A stretch of 20,830 bases of DNA from a virus, in the IMG/VR virus record IMGVR_UViG_3300017743_000181, positions 1 through 20,830 of that record. One strand, written 5' to 3'. The notes beneath the pieces are model-generated. The model was not told where the DNA came from and made no database searches. It saw only the letters and a list, made by a program, of their open reading frames with translations. This document shows, piece after piece, positions 322 through 20,394 of this stretch (the stretch's first letter is position 1; each line of letters begins with the position of its first letter). The position numbers were made by a program, and so were the translations under genes.

Positions 322-654
322 ATGGCTTACAAAGATAACTCCGTAAACTACGGATTTGGACAAATGGGATCAATACACGCTGCTGGAACAGAAACTATCA
401 CTTGTGGAGTTGCTGACGGAGTGTTTGTTGCTATAACATTTTTAGAAGACACTAAATTTGATAGTGCTGTAGCTGGATTAGTTCCACAATCTAGTGAACT
501 ATTCCCTAGCTCTGATGGGACAAGTAATGATATTGATGCGGATGGCGGTGATGTTGTTGACTCTGAAGTATTTCCAAAAGGCGTTACTATATACGGTAGA
601 TGGACAGGCTTTAAATTATCTGAAGGTAGAGTAATCGCTTACGTAGGGTACTAA
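322..654 (+). CDS. Small conserved phage protein, possible virion or decoration protein
   Basis: A 110-residue soluble protein with no signal peptide or membrane segment. It starts MAYKDNSVNYGFGQMGS, has an acidic Ser/Asp-rich middle (about residues 55-82), and ends in a beta-rich segment of the type GVTIYGRWTGFKLSEGRVIAY. Proteins of this layout are common beside structural genes of marine phages, but I know of no established function. The ending (a predicted strand, then a Gly-Arg-Trp turn, then another strand) would fit a small beta-sandwich. Its stop overlaps the start of the lectin-like gene in a TAATG, so the two are probably translationally coupled and may act together, for example on the capsid surface. 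That role is inference from position. The ATG follows an AT-rich leader without a clear Shine-Dalgarno sequence. Confidence 0.6.
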   Translation: MAYKDNSVNYGFGQMGSIHAAGTETITCGVADGVFVAITFLEDTKFDSAVAGLVPQSSELFPSSDGTSNDIDADGGDVVDSEVFPKGVTIYGRWTGFKLSEGRVIAYVGY

Positions 655-1367
655 TGCTAGGATTAGGTAATAGCATATCGCACGCTGGCTCTATATCTTT
701 TGCACCTACAGATATATCTGGACTTCAATTTTGGCTACAAAACGGAGTTGGTATAACATCTTCAGGTGATCCAGCGGTTATTGACGCTTGGGCTGATTCT
801 TCTGGTAATGGGCTTAATGCTACAGCAAGCGTTGGTAGAAAACCTTACCTAGTAGATGGTGGGGGTGAATGGGAAGGCGACAGTGATGCTGACGCTTTAC
901 AGTTATCAGCAGCGCAAACGATAAATCAGTTTCACATATTTTTCGCTATAGCTGCCGATGAACACGCCACAAACAACTTGCTAGCTAACGCAAACACTGA
1001 CTTCTTGAGAATAGGTCAGGGAGGTAGTAGCACTCAGCATAGGATTAGGGCTAACGGGCAAACAGTAACTTTGAACGCAACTACAGCTATAGCAACTGAT
1101 GGTACTAGGCAACTATTAGAGTATGAAGGTGGTGATGGATCTTCTAGCAACGTATTTTTAAGAATTAACGGAACTTTAGAAAGCACTAGCAGCCTTGATA
1201 CTGACTCTAATCCTTTTGATTATGGCTTTGTAGGTGCAGTAACAGCAGAAGGTACTAGTAGTTTTGATGGTAAAATATACGAAGTATTAGTTTATAATAA
1301 AGCGCTTAGCTCTGCCGAAGCTACAGACGTTAGAAATTATTTAAACGGCAAATTGAACATATATTAA
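654..1367 (+). CDS. LamG/ConA-like lectin-domain protein (possible head fibre or adhesin)
   Basis: A 237-residue protein that is almost entirely one concanavalin A-like (laminin G type) beta-sandwich. The family signature appears at the N-terminus as GLQFWLQNGVGI and then VIDAWADSSGNGLNATAS, the usual W-x-D-x-SG-x-G-x-x-A pattern. The end of the fold is DGKIYEVLVYNKALSSAEATD, the usual last strand followed by the LS-x-AE helix. These domains usually bind glycans. With no catalytic motif visible, binding rather than cleavage is the likely role. No coiled coil or collagen-like shaft is present. It overlaps the upstream 110-aa gene (TAATG) and lies before the terminase genes rather than with tail genes, so a capsid-surface protein that holds host or particle polysaccharide is a reasonable guess. 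A tail-associated adhesin is the alternative. The fold is well supported; the location in the virion is not. Confidence 0.75.
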   Translation: MLGLGNSISHAGSISFAPTDISGLQFWLQNGVGITSSGDPAVIDAWADSSGNGLNATASVGRKPYLVDGGGEWEGDSDADALQLSAAQTINQFHIFFAIAADEHATNNLLANANTDFLRIGQGGSSTQHRIRANGQTVTLNATTAIATDGTRQLLEYEGGDGSSSNVFLRINGTLESTSSLDTDSNPFDYGFVGAVTAEGTSSFDGKIYEVLVYNKALSSAEATDVRNYLNGKLNIY

Positions 1368-11006: not shown

Positions 11007-11954
11007 ATGGCGGTAAATATAAACACAGTATATCAAAGAGTTTTAACTCTTGCTAACAAAGAGCAAAGAGGGTACATTACGCCTCAAGAATTTAATCTAC
11101 TCGCCAACCAAGCGCAGATGGAGATATTTGAAAAGTATTTCTATGATATAAGTCAAGTATCTAAAGTTAAAGGTAATGATACACGTCACTCTGACTTACT
11201 AACATTACTAGAAGAAAAGCTAACGCCTTTTACTAAAAGACAAGCTAGTGTATCTTTGATAGACGCAGAAGGTAGCATGACGCTTCCTTCTGATTTGTAT
11301 AGAATTAATAGCTTAGTTTTTAATCACGCTACTCTTGGGTATACAGAAGTAAATTTAGTAAGTGAAGAAGAGGCTACGTTATTGAATAAATCTCCTTTAG
11401 CAAAACCTAACCTAACTAGACCTATATACGTAAGAAACTCTAGTGGCATAAAAGTTTTTCCAAAAAGTTTGTTTGGATATTTTACTCAAAACTGCGACAC
11501 AACAGCTAGTAGCGCAAGCGCGTTTGCTGATGCTGGTGGTAGTGTAGCTAGTATACTAGCAGATCAGCTTATTTTTGGTTCTGGTATAACTGCTTCTAAT
11601 ACTAGGGTTCAAGCTATAGCGAATCCTGTTGACCCAGAAACTAGACACGTACTTACTTTGACTCAAGCGGCTGGGTCTACACAAAGCGACACAACGCTTA
11701 CCTTTGCTACAAATAGTGATATTGTAAAATGTAATTACATAGCAAAGCCTACTACAGCGTCTTGGGGATACAATATAGTTGGTGAATACCCACTTTACAA
11801 TTCATCTACGTCTGTAGATTTTGAACTGCATCCTTCTGAGGAAACAATGCTAGTTAATACTATATTGAGAATGGCTGGAATAATATTAAAAGCAGCTGAG
11901 CTACAACCAAAGAAAAAAAATCAAAGCACATCAACAGATAAAAAAACTAAATAA
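11007..11954 (+). CDS. Putative head-tail connector (ring) protein with inserted beta domain
   Basis: A 315-residue protein. The N-terminal region is helical with NKEQRGYITPQEFNLLANQA (about residues 17-36) and EIFEKYFYDIS, a pattern seen in connector or ring proteins of marine podoviruses and crAss-like phages. It is followed by SMTLPSDLYRINSLVFN and a strand-rich part, and it ends with a helix (EETMLVNTILRMAGIILKAA, about 276-295). Residues about 160-233 look like an insertion of Ser/Thr/Ala-rich beta structure (LIFGSGITASNTRVQAI, HVLTLTQAAGSTQSDTTLTF). A similar pattern occurs in the giant protein downstream. The likely role is an adaptor ring between portal and tail. Its TAA overlaps the next ATG (TAATG), so it is coupled to the second connector candidate. 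The precise position in the stack is unknown. Confidence 0.62.
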   Translation: MAVNINTVYQRVLTLANKEQRGYITPQEFNLLANQAQMEIFEKYFYDISQVSKVKGNDTRHSDLLTLLEEKLTPFTKRQASVSLIDAEGSMTLPSDLYRINSLVFNHATLGYTEVNLVSEEEATLLNKSPLAKPNLTRPIYVRNSSGIKVFPKSLFGYFTQNCDTTASSASAFADAGGSVASILADQLIFGSGITASNTRVQAIANPVDPETRHVLTLTQAAGSTQSDTTLTFATNSDIVKCNYIAKPTTASWGYNIVGEYPLYNSSTSVDFELHPSEETMLVNTILRMAGIILKAAELQPKKKNQSTSTDKKTK

Positions 11955-12856
11955 TGGGATTAATAGACGAAACATCAAAACAATATTACGAGGGTCCTGA
12001 TAATAGTTTCAACACTGGAGATGAAAGCTACGGCAACTATCAGTTCACATCTTTAGAAGATATTATAACCAACTTTACTATAGCTTACGTAGGTGAAGAT
12101 AAAATAATACCTAAAATTAGTAGATCTGATATTCAGTTTTTTGCTTCAAGAATTTTGCAAGAGTTTAGTTTTGACACGTTTAAATCTACAAAATCTTTAG
12201 AGTTAAAAGTTCCTAACACTTTAGTTGTTCCGTTGCCTCAAGATTATGTTAGCTACGTTAAAATGGCTTGGGTAGATAACAGTGGAGTTGAGCACGTTGT
12301 TTATCCTATGTCTAAGACTAGCAACCCTACCTCTTTAAATCAAGATGGAACAACATATCAATATAATACTGATGGTAGTTTAAAGTTGAATACTGACTCA
12401 GAGTCTTGGTCTAGATATAAAACTCATAATCCTTCTGAAAACGACAACCACGACTACGATTATGATGATGAAATATATGAATCTAACCAAGGTGGTAGAT
12501 ATGGTATAGATCCAGCTTTTGCTCAAACTAACGGCGGGTTTTACATAGACGATTTAAAAGGTAGAATACACTTTAGTTCTAATATATCTGGAGAGTTTGT
12601 TGTCATAAAATACATAAGCGATAGCTTAGGAACTGACGCTGAAATGCAGGTTCACAAGCTGGCTGAAGAGGCTATGTACAAAAATATAGCTTATTCTATA
12701 GTTTCAACTAGAGCAAACATGCCTATAAACCTTGTTATGAGGTTAAAGAAAGAAGCGTTTGCGTCAAAAAGAACTGCTAAGCTAAGACTATCTAATATAA
12801 AGGTAGAAGAATTAACACAAATACTTAGAGGTAAATCTAAGCAAATCAAACACTAG
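11954..12856 (+). CDS. Putative tail tubular/P22 gp4-like connector protein
   Basis: A 300-residue protein. After a flexible start comes a helical domain (LEDIITNFTIAYVGEDKIIP, SRSDIQFFASRILQEFSFDT; about residues 34-75). Then come beta strands with VPNTLVVPLPQDYVSYVKMA (about 86-105), the common adaptor motif in which a stretch of strands ends in LPxDYxxxVKM. An acidic loop follows (DNHDYDYDDEIYE, about 165-177). The C-terminus is helical and basic (AEEAMYKNIAYSIVSTRANM, LVMRLKKEAFASKRTAKLRL). Gatekeeper proteins such as T7 gp11 and P22 gp4 share this helical-plus-strand plan, extend the portal channel and bind the tail hub. It sits between a first connector and the giant tail protein, as in P22. 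The stop is doubled (TAGTAG) directly before the next ATG. Confidence 0.65.
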   Translation: MGLIDETSKQYYEGPDNSFNTGDESYGNYQFTSLEDIITNFTIAYVGEDKIIPKISRSDIQFFASRILQEFSFDTFKSTKSLELKVPNTLVVPLPQDYVSYVKMAWVDNSGVEHVVYPMSKTSNPTSLNQDGTTYQYNTDGSLKLNTDSESWSRYKTHNPSENDNHDYDYDDEIYESNQGGRYGIDPAFAQTNGGFYIDDLKGRIHFSSNISGEFVVIKYISDSLGTDAEMQVHKLAEEAMYKNIAYSIVSTRANMPINLVMRLKKEAFASKRTAKLRLSNIKVEELTQILRGKSKQIKH

Positions 12857-12859
12857 TAG

Positions 12860-15800
12860 ATGGCTGAGTTAAAGAAAATTTTTATCAAAGGCAAAATGAA
12901 CAAAGACCTTGATGAAAGGTTAGTTCCTAACGGCGAGTATAGAGACGCTAATAATATACAAGTCTCTACGTCTGATGCAGATGATGCTGGAACAGTTCAA
13001 TCTGTTCTTGGTAACAAAAAATCTTCTAGTGATCAAGATTATAAAGCTTCACTTTTCAACCACATAAGCGAGTCAAACGTTGTTGGTAGCGTCGTTGATG
13101 AAGCTAACAATTATATATACTACTTTGTTAGAGATTATGCTGAGCCAATACCAGGCAAGCATAAAGATGATACTAACTATCCAGACGCTTTTCAAACTCA
13201 GCTCATAGGTACTCAAGTTGATGCTATAATTAGATACGATCAGAACTTAAATACAACAACAGAAGTTTTATTAGACGCTTGGAGAGTTTTTGCTAAACTT
13301 GATGATCCAAACGGTACTGGCGTTAGCGCTTCTGACGAGGAAATATATGTTAGAAGAGGCTTGACTAACGGTTCAGATCCTTACAATGTGCATGGGCTAG
13401 ATATTGCAGAGGGTATGATTGTTTCTTTAATGGATTCTTCTGGAGCAAATATACTTGCTACTCCTTACGCCGTTGTTCAAGATGTTATTACTGACTCTAC
13501 TGACGCAACAACTGGCGAAGGTATATCAAAAATAAAGTTGTCTAGGCCTATAGATCACTCAGACAGTATTAGCTACACTCAAGAACAAATAAACGAGCAA
13601 GGCATAACAGTTGTTTTTACCTCTCCTCAAAGAATATTAAATTTTCAAAAAAGAAACAAAGAGAAAAGTTTTATTACTTCTATAAATATAATAGATGATT
13701 TTTTACTTTGGACCGATGATATAGGTGAGCCTAAAAAAATAAACGTTAAAGCATCTTTATTTGGCACTAATAACAAGAGGCATACATTTAGAGTAAAATT
13801 AACTAACACCGGTAGCTACACGCAAAGTGGAGGTAGATTAGAGCACGACGACGTCACTGTAATAAGAAAAAATCCTACAATAGCACCAATAGTAGTAGCT
13901 AGTAGCACAGCAGACGACACGCAAGATGCTTACCACTTATTAGCCGAAAGCGTAGACACAGACGCCGGTTTGGTTACTGGTATAAATATTTCGAATACAA
14001 CTGCAGTAGGAGATATTATAGCTTTTCAAATAGTTGGTGGTACCACCTTAAACGCTGACACTGTGATATCGTTTCAAGGCACTATTAGTCAATATAAGTT
14101 TTATGGTAAGGTAGAATCTTCAAACGTTGGAACTGGCGCTATATCTGTAAAAATATCAAGTCTACCTAGTGCGGTAGGCGGTGTAGCGTACGCAGATTAC
14201 ACCACACTACAAGAAACATACAACGCTTTTATATTTGAAGAAAGTAGTATGTATCAAGATAAGTTTATTAGGTTTGCTTACAGATATAGGTATATGGATG
14301 GAGAGTATTCTGGAATATCGCCTTTTAGCGAGACGTTATTCTTCCCTAACACCTACAGTTATACGTCAGACTCTGGTAAAAATCTAGCCATGCAAAATAT
14401 CACTAGATCTGTTAAAATACAAGGGTTTGTTCCTCCTAGCATGCCTAAGTCAGTTGATTCTGTTGACGTATTGATGAAGGATTCTACTTCACCTTCTATA
14501 TATAAAATTAGAAACTTTAAGAAAGGTGGCACAGAGTTTTCTTCAGCGGCGTATGGAGACGTTAAAGGTTCTTTTACCTTAAAATCTGAAGTGTATGGCT
14601 CAACTATACCTAGTGATCAAATACTAAGATCTTGGGATGCAGTTCCAAAAAGAGCTAGGTCTCAAGAAATATCTTCAAACAGACTTATATATGCTAATTA
14701 TTTACAGAACTATAATTTAACAGATGCTGAAGGCAAAAAGGTTTCTTTGGAAATGCAGCCTAAAATCTCTCTCTCTCCGCAGGGTTTTGACTCTATTTTA
14801 CAGATTACTGACAACTTGTTTTCTAATTATCTTTATCAAAAATCAGAGTTTGTTATCGATCCGATTAACTTTATATTAAAGACTCCCGGAGAAACCGGTG
14901 GCTTTGACAGGTTTGACAACGGAAATAATATGCAAAGCCTTCCTATGTTTACTATGGCTCAAACTCAGGGCTATAGTATAGACGGTAGGGTTTACGATGG
15001 AAGTGCTGATGAGGAAGCTATAGAAGCTACAATTTACAAAGTTAAATCTCATTATTTTACAGATACAAACACAACAAGAATACTTACTGGAGAATATAGA
15101 TTCAGTTCAAGAGTAGTTTGTAACACTTTTATACATCTTGGCACAGGTTTATCTAACAGCGCTAGCAGCTTTTCAGGAGCTATACCCAACAATAACAACA
15201 ATATAGACGCTGACGATCCTAGGCAATTTGGTATACCTGAAGCAAGAATTGAGTTAGTTTATTTATCAATAAACGTAGCACAACAAAAAATAGGTATCGC
15301 AGTTGGTAAAGGAAACAACGGGGTTGTTGTAGACGACAATGGTAACGAGGTTGCTTCTGCTTGGGGTGCAGCGGGTAAATACTGGAATAGAGCGTCTATA
15401 TTTGTTAGCGGAACTGATAATAGTGCAGGCGATGGTTACCTTCCAGGAAGTCTTGGATTTACTCACGGTAATCAAGATGCAGAGCTAGGAATTTTTGATC
15501 TTCCTGACGTGCCGGTAACTGTAACCCACGACGATCCTGTTGGCAGTAAGAATGTTGACCCTTCAGCTAGCGCCATGTACGGTTTTGGGGTTAGGCTTGT
15601 TTTTAGTGGTAAAATGTTTTATGTTGACGAATCTAACTACGAGGTCACAAACGACAATGGTGGTAAAAGATACGAGATTACTAGCGACTACATAACTAGT
15701 AGACGTAATTACGGTGGTGGTATTGGTGTAAGAGAAGGAGTTTTAATTTTTACAGACAACACTTCTTCTGCTGTTGAATTTAAACTTGAAAACGGAGAAG

Positions 15801-18800
15801 ATGTATTTGGCTACAACACAAGAGAGCACAAAGACACTGTGATTACTAACGCCAGTCTTCCTAGTGCGACGTTTTTTAGATCTTTTAATCGAAACGTACA
15901 CCAATATGACTCAAGCACCAATAGCATTGGCACTGGTTTTAAGTTTGTTAATGAAACATCTCCTCCGAGCGACTCTAATAACAACAACAATTTTACTTTT
16001 GCAAGAATACAAGACTCAAAAAATTCAAATTTATCCACTTATTTTAAAGTTACTAAAGCACCGTCTTTGTCTTTGGGCACTACAACCGGATTTGGTAAAC
16101 CATCAATAAAGTCTGACAGAAAGTACGAGCTAGGCGTAGTATATAGGGATGTTCAAGGAAGAGAGTCTACCGTGCTTTTAGGCGACGCTTCTGAGTTTTC
16201 TGTAGAAAAAAGCTATAGCACTAGTGTTATAAATATAATGCCTATAATAAACAGCAAGGCGCCATACTGGGCTGATTCGTATAAGTTTTTTGTAAAAGAA
16301 AACAGCTTAGACTACTACAACTTAGTTGCAGACAACACTTTTTTAGCAGATGAAGCAGGTGCTAATATATGGATTTCTTTTAACTCTATAGATAGAAACA
16401 AAATTTCTGATGAAACTGTATTAGTTTTAAAGAAAAGACATAATGTAGTTAATGACTCTTCTGCAGCTTTATTAGGCACAGCCGACAATATATCGTGCGA
16501 GTATCAAGTTCTTGATGTAAGCAATGAAGCTCCACAATACGTTAAAGACTCTGTAACCATTGCTAACGAAAATTGGTCTAACGGAAGGTTTTTTGTTAAA
16601 GTAAAAAACGACAGCCTGCTAAGGTTAGCTTTTGCTAGCGCTACTTTTACCTTAGGCCAAACTATACAAGACGACACTCAAGCTTCTTATGTTCACAATC
16701 ACCCCGCTGTCTTTGAAACTAAAGCAAGTAAAGAATCTTCTGCTGATACATTTTTTGAAGCTAGCCAGGCTTTTCCCGTAAGACTAACTAACAAAAATGT
16801 CCACGAATACATAAAGCAAGGCTCTACTATAACTGGCTTTAGCGTAGATAAATCTGGCAATGCTTACGAAATGTCTGATTTAGCTATAGATAGACCTAGC
16901 GGGTATTCCTCTGACAACCCTAGTAGTATTTTAGATGGAGCTGTAAAAGTAACAAACGTAGAGCTTGAAAGCCATAGTACTCAAAGATTTTCTCAAAGTG
17001 AGTTGAAGTCTCAAACTAAAGAAATGATTAAGATTACTGTTGACACGCCGCTTACTTTGCAAGCTATAGATCCTGCGACGTCTGCTGATGCTTTTGAGCA
17101 ATCTTGTGTGCACTTAGTATTTAAGCACCCAAATGTTTTTGGTTCTACTAGCGCAAGGGTAGTGAAATACTTAACGCACGAAAACACGTCAACAATATAT
17201 CTAAACCCTCTAACACACCCTGTGCCTCAAGATAAAAACGCGATATCTTTTATAACCATACCTTTTTATAATTGTTATTCATTTGGCAACGGTGTTGAGT
17301 CAGATAGAATAATAGACGGATTTAATAATCCAACTTTGTTCGTTGAAACGCAGTCTGGTGATAAAGCTTCTTTAGTATTAGAAGACTATAGAGAAGAATA
17401 TAGAAACCACGGTTTAATACACTCTGAAATTTACAACTCAACAACTAGTATAAACAAGCTAAATCAATTTATAGCTGCTAAAAGTATAACTAAAGATCTT
17501 AGCCCAGAGTATGGTAGTATACAAAAAATATACTCTAGAGATACAAACATAATTGTTTTTTGCGAAGACAAAGTGCTAAACGTTCTTGGTAAAAAAGTGG
17601 CATTACTAAGTGCTGATGGAAATACTAACCTAGGCTTAACAGAGTCTATATTTGGAACAGAAATACCTTATCAAGGAGAGTTTGGAATATCTAAAAACCC
17701 TGAGTCTTTTGCTATATCTGACTTTAGAATATATTTTACAGACAAAGCTAGAAAAGCGGTTCTTAGACTTTCTAAAGATGGCATTACGAGAATATCTGGC
17801 GCTGGTATGAGCGATTGGTTTAACGATAACATGGGTAGTGCCAAAAATATAATAGGAAGCTTTGATAAAAGAAAAAACGAGTATAACTTAACTTTACTTG
17901 GCCCTTTAGAATCTTTATCAGATTCATACACGTTAAGTTTCAATGAAACAAGTGACGGTTGGGTTAGCTTCAAGTCTTTTTTACAGAAAAACGGACAAAC
18001 ACTAAACAGTGAATACTACACTTTTTCTAACGGTGAAATATGGAAGCATCACTCTACAGCGTCTGCCGCTAATAATTTTTATGGTACACAGTATTATTCT
18101 GACATAACAGTTCTTTTTAACGAGCAGCCAAGTTTAGTAAAAAGTTTTAAAACTATGAACTACGAAGGCTCTGACTCTAGAGTAAAGCTACAAGCATCTG
18201 ATGGTCAGTACTACAATAACAATAGTAAAAAAGGTTGGTACGTAGAAAGTTTTAAAACAGATCAACAAGAAGGATCTGTGCCAGAGTTTATAAATAAAGA
18301 AGGCAAATGGTTTAATTATATTCAAGGTGATGCAACAACGTTAGACAATATAGATTTTAAAGAAGCTAACATACAGGGCTTAGGATCTTTGTCTATAAAC
18401 TCTAGTGTAACAGGTGCTGGAGGTAGTCAAGATATAACATACTATCAAGGCTTTACGTTAACAGGAGAAACTTTAGGGGTTGATTCAACTAGTCAACCTT
18501 TAGACGCTGTTAGTAGTTCAAACTTTACTGTTCAAAACGTAACTCCTGCTATAGTTCAAACATGCGCTACGACTAACGCTAGCAACGAAATAACTTTAGC
18601 AGAAGCTTCGCCGCAAATATTTATAGGAACTAGTGTTGAAGGAACAAACATACCGCTTAATACAGTTGTAGAAACTATAAGCGGGACAACAGTTACTTTA
18701 AGTAATAACGCAACTGGAACTGGCAATGTAGAGCTGTCGTTTATACAAAATCCAGCTGACTCTACTTTCACTATAACACCTTTACCTAACTATGCTATTC

Positions 18801-19744
18801 AAGCTAGTGATTTTTATTTTGGAACCGGCACAAGCTCTGCTAGCTCAGGAACAACTTTTACTAGTAACGTTAATGGTGTTCAAATAGAAGAAGAGTTGAA
18901 CGAAGAGTTGTGGGAGCAAGAGTCTGGTGGATTTTCTATAAACATACCTGGCTCTGAGTCTAAGTGGACAGCGTACTCTACAAATCAAGTAGCTATAGTA
19001 GCTGATCTTGAAGGCGGTGAACCTTTTGTTAGGCTTTTAGAGACGAGCGCTTCTGGCAACTCTGCTTATACCCTGCTTAGAGCTTCAAGCTTAGCCAGCG
19101 GAAGTTTAACATCAAACTTGGTTTCAGGACAAAACTACATTTTAACGTTTGACGCTAAGGTCGGTGAGTATACACATACAGATGGTCAGACATATCAACC
19201 GAATGTGGTTGGAGTTTTAAATCCTAATATCACTAACGTTAGTAATCTTATTGTAACAGGCAACATAAGCTCTACGCTTAGCAACTTTTCAATAAGTTTT
19301 ACAGCTGGCTCAAGCGCTCCGTTACTACAGTGGCAGCAAATGAATAAATTTGATACGGGTGAAGTTGTCTATATGAGAAATTTTAGTTTAAAGACAACTA
19401 AAAATAGAATAAAATCAATAACATTTACAGACACAGCTACCCCGCTAGAATTAAACAACACTGTATTAGCAACTATAGATTTTAACTCTGTTTCTCTAGA
19501 CGCTAACGAAACTATACAAATAAAGCCTAAAGGCTTAGTATACACAGAAACTGTAGAAATAAACTTTTCTTTAGATTTAGAGTTTAGTGGAACAGCTGGA
19601 GCAGGTCAAACTATAAATATACTTTCTGGATCTGGATCTACAGGTGGTCAATTAACGCCAGGCTTGGCTAATCCTGGAATAAGCTTAACAGTTCAAGCGG
19701 TAGACGAACAAGTTAGGCATGTAATAGGCACTTTTATAAACTAG
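12860..19744 (+). CDS. Giant tail stabilisation/muzzle-like protein with glycan-binding-like C-terminus
   Basis: A 2,294-residue protein taking a third of the window. Residues 10-52 hold a motif common in tail stabilisation proteins of marine and crAss-like podoviruses (KMNKDLDERLVPNGEYRDA, then NIQVSTSDA and VLGN). The core has propeller-like strand repeats, with conserved-looking parts near 1130-1195 (YKFFVKENSLDYYNLVAD, ISFNSIDRNKI) and 1545-1665 (IYSRDTNIIVFCEDKVLNVL, GISKNPESFAISDFRIYFTD). Several inserted beta modules lie at about 340-440 and 1899-1960. Residues about 2013-2180 look like a galactose-binding/CBM4-9-type jelly roll (NYILTFDAKVGEY, LSNFSISFTAG, VVYMRNFSLKT). A final Ig-like stretch spans 2180-2294. 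P22 gp10 (about 470 residues) plugs the tail tube, so this is several times longer. The likely role is tail nozzle plus receptor binding. The reading frame is intact. A pure fibre or spike protein is the alternative. Confidence 0.68.
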   Translation: MAELKKIFIKGKMNKDLDERLVPNGEYRDANNIQVSTSDADDAGTVQSVLGNKKSSSDQDYKASLFNHISESNVVGSVVDEANNYIYYFVRDYAEPIPGKHKDDTNYPDAFQTQLIGTQVDAIIRYDQNLNTTTEVLLDAWRVFAKLDDPNGTGVSASDEEIYVRRGLTNGSDPYNVHGLDIAEGMIVSLMDSSGANILATPYAVVQDVITDSTDATTGEGISKIKLSRPIDHSDSISYTQEQINEQGITVVFTSPQRILNFQKRNKEKSFITSINIIDDFLLWTDDIGEPKKINVKASLFGTNNKRHTFRVKLTNTGSYTQSGGRLEHDDVTVIRKNPTIAPIVVASSTADDTQDAYHLLAESVDTDAGLVTGINISNTTAVGDIIAFQIVGGTTLNADTVISFQGTISQYKFYGKVESSNVGTGAISVKISSLPSAVGGVAYADYTTLQETYNAFIFEESSMYQDKFIRFAYRYRYMDGEYSGISPFSETLFFPNTYSYTSDSGKNLAMQNITRSVKIQGFVPPSMPKSVDSVDVLMKDSTSPSIYKIRNFKKGGTEFSSAAYGDVKGSFTLKSEVYGSTIPSDQILRSWDAVPKRARSQEISSNRLIYANYLQNYNLTDAEGKKVSLEMQPKISLSPQGFDSILQITDNLFSNYLYQKSEFVIDPINFILKTPGETGGFDRFDNGNNMQSLPMFTMAQTQGYSIDGRVYDGSADEEAIEATIYKVKSHYFTDTNTTRILTGEYRFSSRVVCNTFIHLGTGLSNSASSFSGAIPNNNNNIDADDPRQFGIPEARIELVYLSINVAQQKIGIAVGKGNNGVVVDDNGNEVASAWGAAGKYWNRASIFVSGTDNSAGDGYLPGSLGFTHGNQDAELGIFDLPDVPVTVTHDDPVGSKNVDPSASAMYGFGVRLVFSGKMFYVDESNYEVTNDNGGKRYEITSDYITSRRNYGGGIGVREGVLIFTDNTSSAVEFKLENGEDVFGYNTREHKDTVITNASLPSATFFRSFNRNVHQYDSSTNSIGTGFKFVNETSPPSDSNNNNNFTFARIQDSKNSNLSTYFKVTKAPSLSLGTTTGFGKPSIKSDRKYELGVVYRDVQGRESTVLLGDASEFSVEKSYSTSVINIMPIINSKAPYWADSYKFFVKENSLDYYNLVADNTFLADEAGANIWISFNSIDRNKISDETVLVLKKRHNVVNDSSAALLGTADNISCEYQVLDVSNEAPQYVKDSVTIANENWSNGRFFVKVKNDSLLRLAFASATFTLGQTIQDDTQASYVHNHPAVFETKASKESSADTFFEASQAFPVRLTNKNVHEYIKQGSTITGFSVDKSGNAYEMSDLAIDRPSGYSSDNPSSILDGAVKVTNVELESHSTQRFSQSELKSQTKEMIKITVDTPLTLQAIDPATSADAFEQSCVHLVFKHPNVFGSTSARVVKYLTHENTSTIYLNPLTHPVPQDKNAISFITIPFYNCYSFGNGVESDRIIDGFNNPTLFVETQSGDKASLVLEDYREEYRNHGLIHSEIYNSTTSINKLNQFIAAKSITKDLSPEYGSIQKIYSRDTNIIVFCEDKVLNVLGKKVALLSADGNTNLGLTESIFGTEIPYQGEFGISKNPESFAISDFRIYFTDKARKAVLRLSKDGITRISGAGMSDWFNDNMGSAKNIIGSFDKRKNEYNLTLLGPLESLSDSYTLSFNETSDGWVSFKSFLQKNGQTLNSEYYTFSNGEIWKHHSTASAANNFYGTQYYSDITVLFNEQPSLVKSFKTMNYEGSDSRVKLQASDGQYYNNNSKKGWYVESFKTDQQEGSVPEFINKEGKWFNYIQGDATTLDNIDFKEANIQGLGSLSINSSVTGAGGSQDITYYQGFTLTGETLGVDSTSQPLDAVSSSNFTVQNVTPAIVQTCATTNASNEITLAEASPQIFIGTSVEGTNIPLNTVVETISGTTVTLSNNATGTGNVELSFIQNPADSTFTITPLPNYAIQASDFYFGTGTSSASSGTTFTSNVNGVQIEEELNEELWEQESGGFSINIPGSESKWTAYSTNQVAIVADLEGGEPFVRLLETSASGNSAYTLLRASSLASGSLTSNLVSGQNYILTFDAKVGEYTHTDGQTYQPNVVGVLNPNITNVSNLIVTGNISSTLSNFSISFTAGSSAPLLQWQQMNKFDTGEVVYMRNFSLKTTKNRIKSITFTDTATPLELNNTVLATIDFNSVSLDANETIQIKPKGLVYTETVEINFSLDLEFSGTAGAGQTINILSGSGSTGGQLTPGLANPGISLTVQAVDEQVRHVIGTFIN

Positions 19745-19748
19745 CGAT

Positions 19749-20036
19749 ATGGCATTAGCAACATACAACTCAAAAAATAGAATTAAACCCGGAGAGGAGC
19801 AAGAAGCTTTTAAATATGAATTTAAAGCTAACGAAGGCTATTTTTACTCTGTGTTAGAACCTGTTATAACTTCAAACTCAGGCGCTGAATACTCGGTTAC
19901 CGTTGTTGATGAAGTGTTTGGTTTAAAACAAACTCTACAAGAAAGAACGTATTTACTCAAAATAACAACTCCAGGTAGAATAGAACTTATAGATCAGGAC
20001 AGTATAAAATTTAAAACAGAACTGCAACAGTATTAA
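19749..20036 (+). CDS. Small protein of unknown function, probably virion
   Basis: A 95-residue protein with no membrane segment. It is predicted to be all beta: FKYEFKANEGYFYSVLEPVI, AEYSVTVVDEVFGLKQTL, then TYLLKITTPGRIELIDQDSI. The pattern suggests a small beta sandwich, Ig-like or fibre-tip-like. It begins 4 bases after the giant gene's TAG and ends 1 base before the next ATG, so all three are likely co-translated. It may dock onto the giant protein. P22 places its tail needle (gp26) in this slot, but this protein lacks the long coiled coil of a needle, so I do not assign that role. Confidence 0.55.
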   Translation: MALATYNSKNRIKPGEEQEAFKYEFKANEGYFYSVLEPVITSNSGAEYSVTVVDEVFGLKQTLQERTYLLKITTPGRIELIDQDSIKFKTELQQY

Positions 20037-20037
20037 T

Positions 20038-20394
20038 ATGAGCTTAGTAAACATTACATTAACATTTGCAAACGAAGTAAATCAATCTGCGCAAGTTGGA
20101 GACACTGTTTATTTTTGCACTCCATTTACCGACGGTGGATTTAACACAAATATAGGCACTGACGTTAAAAAAAGTGGTACAATAGCCTCTGTGGCTCAAA
20201 AAACAATAACTGTTGATCACGATGTTAACGTTCCGTTTCCTCAAGCTAATGATTTTATATTTTTTAGCAAAGACGCAAAGGCTAATACATCGTCTATGTT
20301 AGGTTACTTTGCTGAGGTTAAATTTAAGAACGACTCAACGTCTAGCGTAGAGCTGTTTTCTACATCGTCTCAAGTAGACGTAAGTAGTAAATAG
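20038..20394 (+). CDS. Small conserved virion-type beta protein
   Basis: A 118-residue protein. The first half looks like a small beta barrel (SLVNITLTFANEVNQSAQVG, DTVYF, then SGTIASVAQKTITVDHDVNV). The second half has NDFIFFSKDAKANTSSMLGY and a last strand pair (FAEVKFKNDSTSSVELFSTS). The GYxAEVKFxNxSxxxxELFS ending is common in small late proteins of marine phages, usually beside tail or internal proteins, without a proven function. A minor tail or tail-tip part is plausible. It stops with TAG, and a 43-base AT-rich gap follows. Confidence 0.6.
   Translation: MSLVNITLTFANEVNQSAQVGDTVYFCTPFTDGGFNTNIGTDVKKSGTIASVAQKTITVDHDVNVPFPQANDFIFFSKDAKANTSSMLGYFAEVKFKNDSTSSVELFSTSSQVDVSSK

Follow-up and report, generated by a model that had tools for sequence, protein, structure and literature searches.

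What is a protein of 2294 residues, encoded at 12860–19744 of a short viral record, and how does it come to be so large? The window we analysed is the entire IMG/VR record of 20,830 bases, which is probably a fragment as relatives have genomes of 60–80 kb. The open reading frame (ORF) is real, as described earlier (plus strand, ATG start, stop at 19744, 2294 aa), and the original prediction had taken its product for a tail plug or muzzle protein, several times the size of P22 gp10, bearing added carbohydrate-binding-like domains. We find that this is a tail muzzle (nozzle) of the crassvirus type from a marine-type, crAss-related phage, but that the original prediction missed the main point, which is that the muzzle's own C-terminal domain (CTD) is a separate gene at 20038–20394. 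We give our account as a whole, of a hexameric tail-tip muzzle broken after the MUZ_C domain, with the CTD on its own gene and a C-terminal extension and an insert as outer modules, a probability of roughly 80%. The features on which the identification depends are these:

11007..12856, plus strand: pair of virion structural proteins immediately before the muzzle (PHROGs 14543 and 13977; tail barrel/ring position)
12860..19744, plus strand: muzzle (tail-tip) protein, 2294 aa (PHROG 14478, E 2e-122; Pfam crAss_MUZ_C)
17369..18088, plus strand: second part of the beta-propeller, residues 1504–1743 (Foldseek and VIA against the phiCrAss001 muzzle, matching its residues up to 1252)
18068..18328, plus strand: crAss_MUZ_C domain (PF25729), residues 1737–1823 (E 5.5e-11, 43.2 bits, curated cut-off 27)

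The muzzle assignment is borne out by the PF25729 match and by the structural comparisons, in which both Foldseek and VIA gave the phiCrAss001 muzzle as the best match. For residues 1504–1743 the top Foldseek match in the PDB was 7qok_A (E 1e-8), with 7qol_P also best-ranked, and VIA returned Z scores of 12.4–12.6 for 7qok and 7qol (Z 12.4 corresponds to an rmsd of 3.2 with 199 residues aligned); lower Foldseek matches were to the phage nozzles of Pa223, SU10, Pan3, GP4 and VP1, plus P22 gp10. The AlphaFold model of residues 1465–2294 is good only for about 1550–1740, where a half-propeller is predicted. In the model of residues 1–1200 (mean pLDDT 47.7), 7qol_P and 7qok_A rank first with 310–319 residues aligned and Z scores of 9.4–9.7, with unrelated propellers lying within 1 Z over shorter alignments. 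The N-terminal likeness to muzzle proteins that had been suggested is also real, with the first 90 or so residues aligning to most of the relatives we fetched, and residues 24–159 of phiCrAss001 gp44 aligning weakly to the muzzle family profile. The long Pfam model PF25731 (crAss_MUZ) matched neither the window protein nor the phi38:1 homologue, and as this model covers the crassviruses proper, our claim is one of homology and function and not of membership of the order Crassvirales. No muzzle chain was found by a PDB sequence search using a profile of close relatives, and the whole muzzle had no match in bacterial genomes.

Gene order places the protein in the same setting. Ahead of the muzzle the window encodes, in turn, terminase, portal, the capsid-position structural protein of PHROG 13704 and the structural proteins of PHROGs 14543 and 13977. 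Cellulophaga phi38:1 and the Flavobacterium elemo phages have their genes in this order too, and the closest terminase among named phages is that of MW202828 (65.8%). The two proteins directly upstream of the muzzle would be tail barrel or ring proteins, judging from the gene order of phiCrAss001. The ring-position protein at 11007–11954 has 315 aa, compared with 232–256 aa in phi38:1, elemo and MW202828, and its surplus length is apparently an extra beta-type module at residues 160–245 or thereabouts, for which we could establish no tie to the module in the C-terminal extension of the muzzle. A GroES co-chaperonin-like gene (1871–2452, PHROG 13932) adjoins the terminase gene and is conserved in the phi38:1 and elemo phages.

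The closest characterised protein is the phiCrAss001 muzzle gp44 (PDB 7qok/7qol; PF25731 and PF25729; PMC10172136), with which the window protein has in common MUZ_C, the propeller fold, the N-terminal segment and the gene position after the ring protein gene. However, gp44 consists of a single 1371-aa chain which stops 38 residues past MUZ_C. In the window this end is encoded by a gene of its own, its place in the chain is filled by a 444-aa extension, and 442 extra residues lie at a site we refer to as B. Cellulophaga phi38:1 gp097 (Pervagoviridae, 1324 aa, with MUZ_C) and a structural protein of the Flavobacterium elemo phage (1493 aa) belong to the same family as the window muzzle, but unlike it are uninterrupted with the CTD fused. 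The P22 gp10 and T7 gp12 nozzles provide a tail-tip beta-propeller hub as in the window but are single chains without Ig or crass regions, and with gp10 chains of about 471 aa the several-fold difference in size that had been noted holds.

Our homology search for the muzzle recovered 80 homologous loci, and the window protein is the longest of the homologues we fetched, with the complete ones ranging over 1324–2105 aa. Bayfield et al. 2023 have already described muzzles of differing length that arise from insertions into the IG2 and crass regions (PMC10172136), which means that size in itself is no novelty. When segment lengths were aligned with those of 18 homologues, all uninterrupted or near-complete, the core segments were constant (e.g. 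268–295 aa for residues 1465–1742), and with the window included, length varied at five sites: A (4–120 aa), B (12–442 aa), C (204–312 aa), D (30–196 aa) and the C-terminal end (18–444 aa). The size of the muzzle thus stems from insertions at fixed sites, and the window gives the maximum at A, B and the C-terminal end, in agreement with the earlier view that domains had been added to a muzzle (the insert at site B and the C-terminal extension). The internal sites are:

13274..13636, plus strand: variable site A, residues 139–259 (120 aa here, 4–110 aa in relatives)
14777..16105, plus strand: variable site B, residues 640–1082 (442-aa insert; no sequence homologue found)
16562..17251, plus strand: variable site C, residues 1235–1464 (presumed place of the crass-domain insertion)

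Site B has only 12–30 aa in the 18 aligned relatives, and over a larger set of 66 homologues its length is bimodal, with –4 to 29 aa in 40 and 160–319 aa in 26. The window insert has no detectable kinship with the 160–319-aa inserts that other clades have there, and no full-length homologue was found for it in viral contigs and phage records. We rejected it by eye as an intein as intein ends are absent. At site C, the window has 230 aa compared with 452 aa in phiCrAss001 gp44, in a comparison for which the window model is poor over residues 640–1200.

In uninterrupted relatives the muzzle terminates in a conserved domain of 60–95 aa, the CTD. We made an HMM of this domain from the CTDs of other loci, leaving out separate small genes of the window's type, and in the window it found only 20038–20394 and did not match the 2294-aa protein. 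The two open reading frames that follow the muzzle are:

19749..20036, plus strand: ORF of 95 aa separating the muzzle from the CTD gene (homologue searches gave no match)
20038..20394, plus strand: detached muzzle CTD, 118 aa (CTD HMM E 4.4e-19; colinear alignment; C-terminal part of PHROG 18548)

The CTD gene has its own start codon immediately past the stop of the 95-aa ORF, and window residues 1725–1860 followed by the product of this small gene are colinear with uninterrupted relatives. The CTD has been displaced and not duplicated. A Pfam scan of the CTD gene gave no match. The 38 residues by which phiCrAss001 gp44 extends beyond MUZ_C can be aligned with the final strands of the CTD (by MAFFT and by eye; the HMM score was not significant). 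In the nearest relatives (L002, L016 and L018) the CTD gene follows the muzzle directly, starting 0–3 bases from the muzzle stop, and the arrangement with a 95-aa ORF in between was seen in one record only, the window.

The displacement is not peculiar to this lineage. Across 55 records, the CTD HMM found exactly one CTD-bearing ORF each, with the CTD at the end of the muzzle in 20, on a second gene in 33 (the window included) and blurred by a frameshift in two. The breaks recur at three places (P0001 coordinates). Eleven records are broken before the second part of the propeller, with the second gene starting at 1464–1480; 14 are broken inside the propeller at 1680–1689 | 1686–1690; and eight, including the window, are broken after MUZ_C at about 1850|1855. 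The second class includes MW202828, a complete genome of a Manatee Spring phage, where the muzzle is likewise two genes (UOF82506 and UOF82505) with another gene between, though broken at 1680|1690 inside the propeller and not after MUZ_C as in the window. Break types track clades on the core tree, requiring four changes where shuffles required a mean of 30 and none of 500 required as few; support was 0.986 for the clade of the window with L002, L016 and L018, and only 0.736 for the whole after-MUZ_C class. At the joints the genes lie no more than a few bases apart, a spacing like that of translationally coupled genes. Split muzzle genes are not described in the open-access papers we searched.

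Might the break and the separate CTD gene be an artefact of assembly or sequencing, an intron or a frameshift? The two blurred records are of this kind, as the apparent splits in Maribacter phage Panino (L084) and L019 are mere frameshifts in continuous coding sequences, and we rejected both as true splits (the annotated muzzle split in Panino lies at 12150–12500 and is probably a sequencing error). An extra break in L057 was set aside as there are undetermined bases near it. Among the cultured relatives we examined, no muzzle is genuinely divided. In the window and its kin, however, the pieces are separate genes with their own starts, often with unrelated coding stretches between them, the same break occurs in independent contigs, the two-gene muzzle is present in the complete genome MW202828, and an Rfam scan for an intron gave no family match. 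An artefact of any of these kinds is therefore very improbable.

What is found at the breaks bears on the nature of the extension. The first halves bear C-terminal additions and further genes stand between halves, and modules are exchanged between free and fused states: L061 and L063 carry, fused to the first half, a 300-aa module which in five other records (L051, L053, L060, L062 and L071) is a free gene between the halves, and the module in L061 has 47.7% identity to the L051 gene. In four records of the window's break class (L004, L005, L008 and L020) an ORF of 995–1089 aa lies between muzzle and CTD, and in the two of these that were scanned (L008 and L020) cadherin-like domains PF17803/PF16184 were over Pfam cut-offs. 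The window extension is most probably another such module, and would presumably make contact with the host. The features involved in this and in the claim of carbohydrate binding are:

654..1367, plus strand: Laminin-G/concanavalin-like protein, candidate receptor-binding protein (Laminin_G_3, PF13385, E 3.9e-8, over the family cut-off)
18410..19741, plus strand: C-terminal extension, residues 1851–2294, 444 aa (occupies the CTD position of uninterrupted relatives; predicted beta-rich)
18431..18766, plus strand: small module within the extension (resembles parts of virion structural proteins, PHROGs 6005, 5838 and 6002; E 2e-5 to 2e-4)

The small module also has weak tblastn matches to cyanophage structural proteins, and no full-length homologue of the extension was found in viral contigs, phage records and bacterial genomes. 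The original prediction had read the last 280 residues as a CBM4/9-type jelly roll plus an Ig-like domain, and proposed that the phage may bind its receptor through them. These residues are indeed lineage-specific, missing from most relatives, and predicted to be beta-rich, and to the eye their sequence pattern resembles jelly-roll carbohydrate-binding modules, but neither fold could be assigned by any tool. The CBM4/9 profile PF02018 gave no candidate over the whole window even at E 10, yet had matches in seven of 14 control genomes; residues 2009–2195 returned nothing convincing from Pfam (hmmscan), PHROGs or the PDB; and no carbohydrate-binding fold appears in the VIA and Foldseek tables for the extension, a region barely covered in a low-pLDDT model (mostly <50 over the beta-rich residues 2009–2294). 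A carbohydrate-binding module here is possible but unsupported, and we regard the fuller reading, in which it is the receptor-binding part, as unlikely. It had also been argued that receptor binding may be built into the nozzle because the window lacks a separate long tail-fibre gene, but this absence is a weak argument as the record is a 20.8-kb fragment and contains the lectin-type gene at 654–1367. That gene immediately precedes the GroES-like and terminase genes, in a slot which in phi38:1 is taken by an annotated tail protein. That the muzzle should contact a receptor is plausible on other grounds and not new, as the crass domain of the phiCrAss001 muzzle is thought to touch the cell surface (PMC10172136). 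A receptor role for the extension and the site B insert is only our inference, as sequence searches gave a full-length homologue of neither and the model pLDDT there is about 25–50.

The added parts might instead be structural, bracing the muzzle on the tail barrel or replacing the contacts of the displaced CTD without touching the host. The extension begins at the entry point of the CTD, which would be beside the barrel-docking part according to the domain description of phiCrAss001 (PMC10172136), and the module at its start is similar to virion structural proteins. Against this, the length and sequence of the added parts vary between clades while the core is constant, and relatives carry cadherin-like adhesin domains at the same break, both of which fit exposed, fast-changing parts, and we consider a purely structural role doubtful.

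In our preferred reading of a broken muzzle with outer modules, the protein, presumably as a hexamer, forms the tail-tip muzzle of a relative of Cellulophaga phi38:1, the Flavobacterium elemo phages and the crassviruses, and its conserved core (propeller, Ig-type region and MUZ_C) would shut the tail and gate ejection. The chain would have been broken after MUZ_C in this lineage, with the last domain made from 20038–20394 and its product expected to rejoin the muzzle in trans at assembly. The freed C-terminus of the main chain would then bear the 444-aa beta-rich extension, with the second large insert at site B, and these, together with the ORFs at the breaks of relatives, are probably best seen as exchangeable outer modules, either in contact with the cell surface or as decoration of the tail tip. 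As the muzzle closes the tail and sets the time of genome release, a chain that still works when cut in or beside the propeller would offer a general route to attach and swap receptor-contacting parts on the gate, apart from the tail fibres. We suggest more tentatively, and at slightly less than even odds, that in a large group of phi38:1- and crassvirus-related environmental phages the tail-tip gate is a split protein reassembled from two products, with three recurrent cuts and free ends that have swappable host-recognition modules fused or next door. For annotation, the two-gene muzzle in 33 of 55 records is a warning, as the small second gene goes unrecognised. Several relatives also have structural proteins of >3000 aa four to six genes downstream of the muzzle (L082 24334–35475; L085 18917–28185), one of which is annotated, improbably, as a rhoptry protein.
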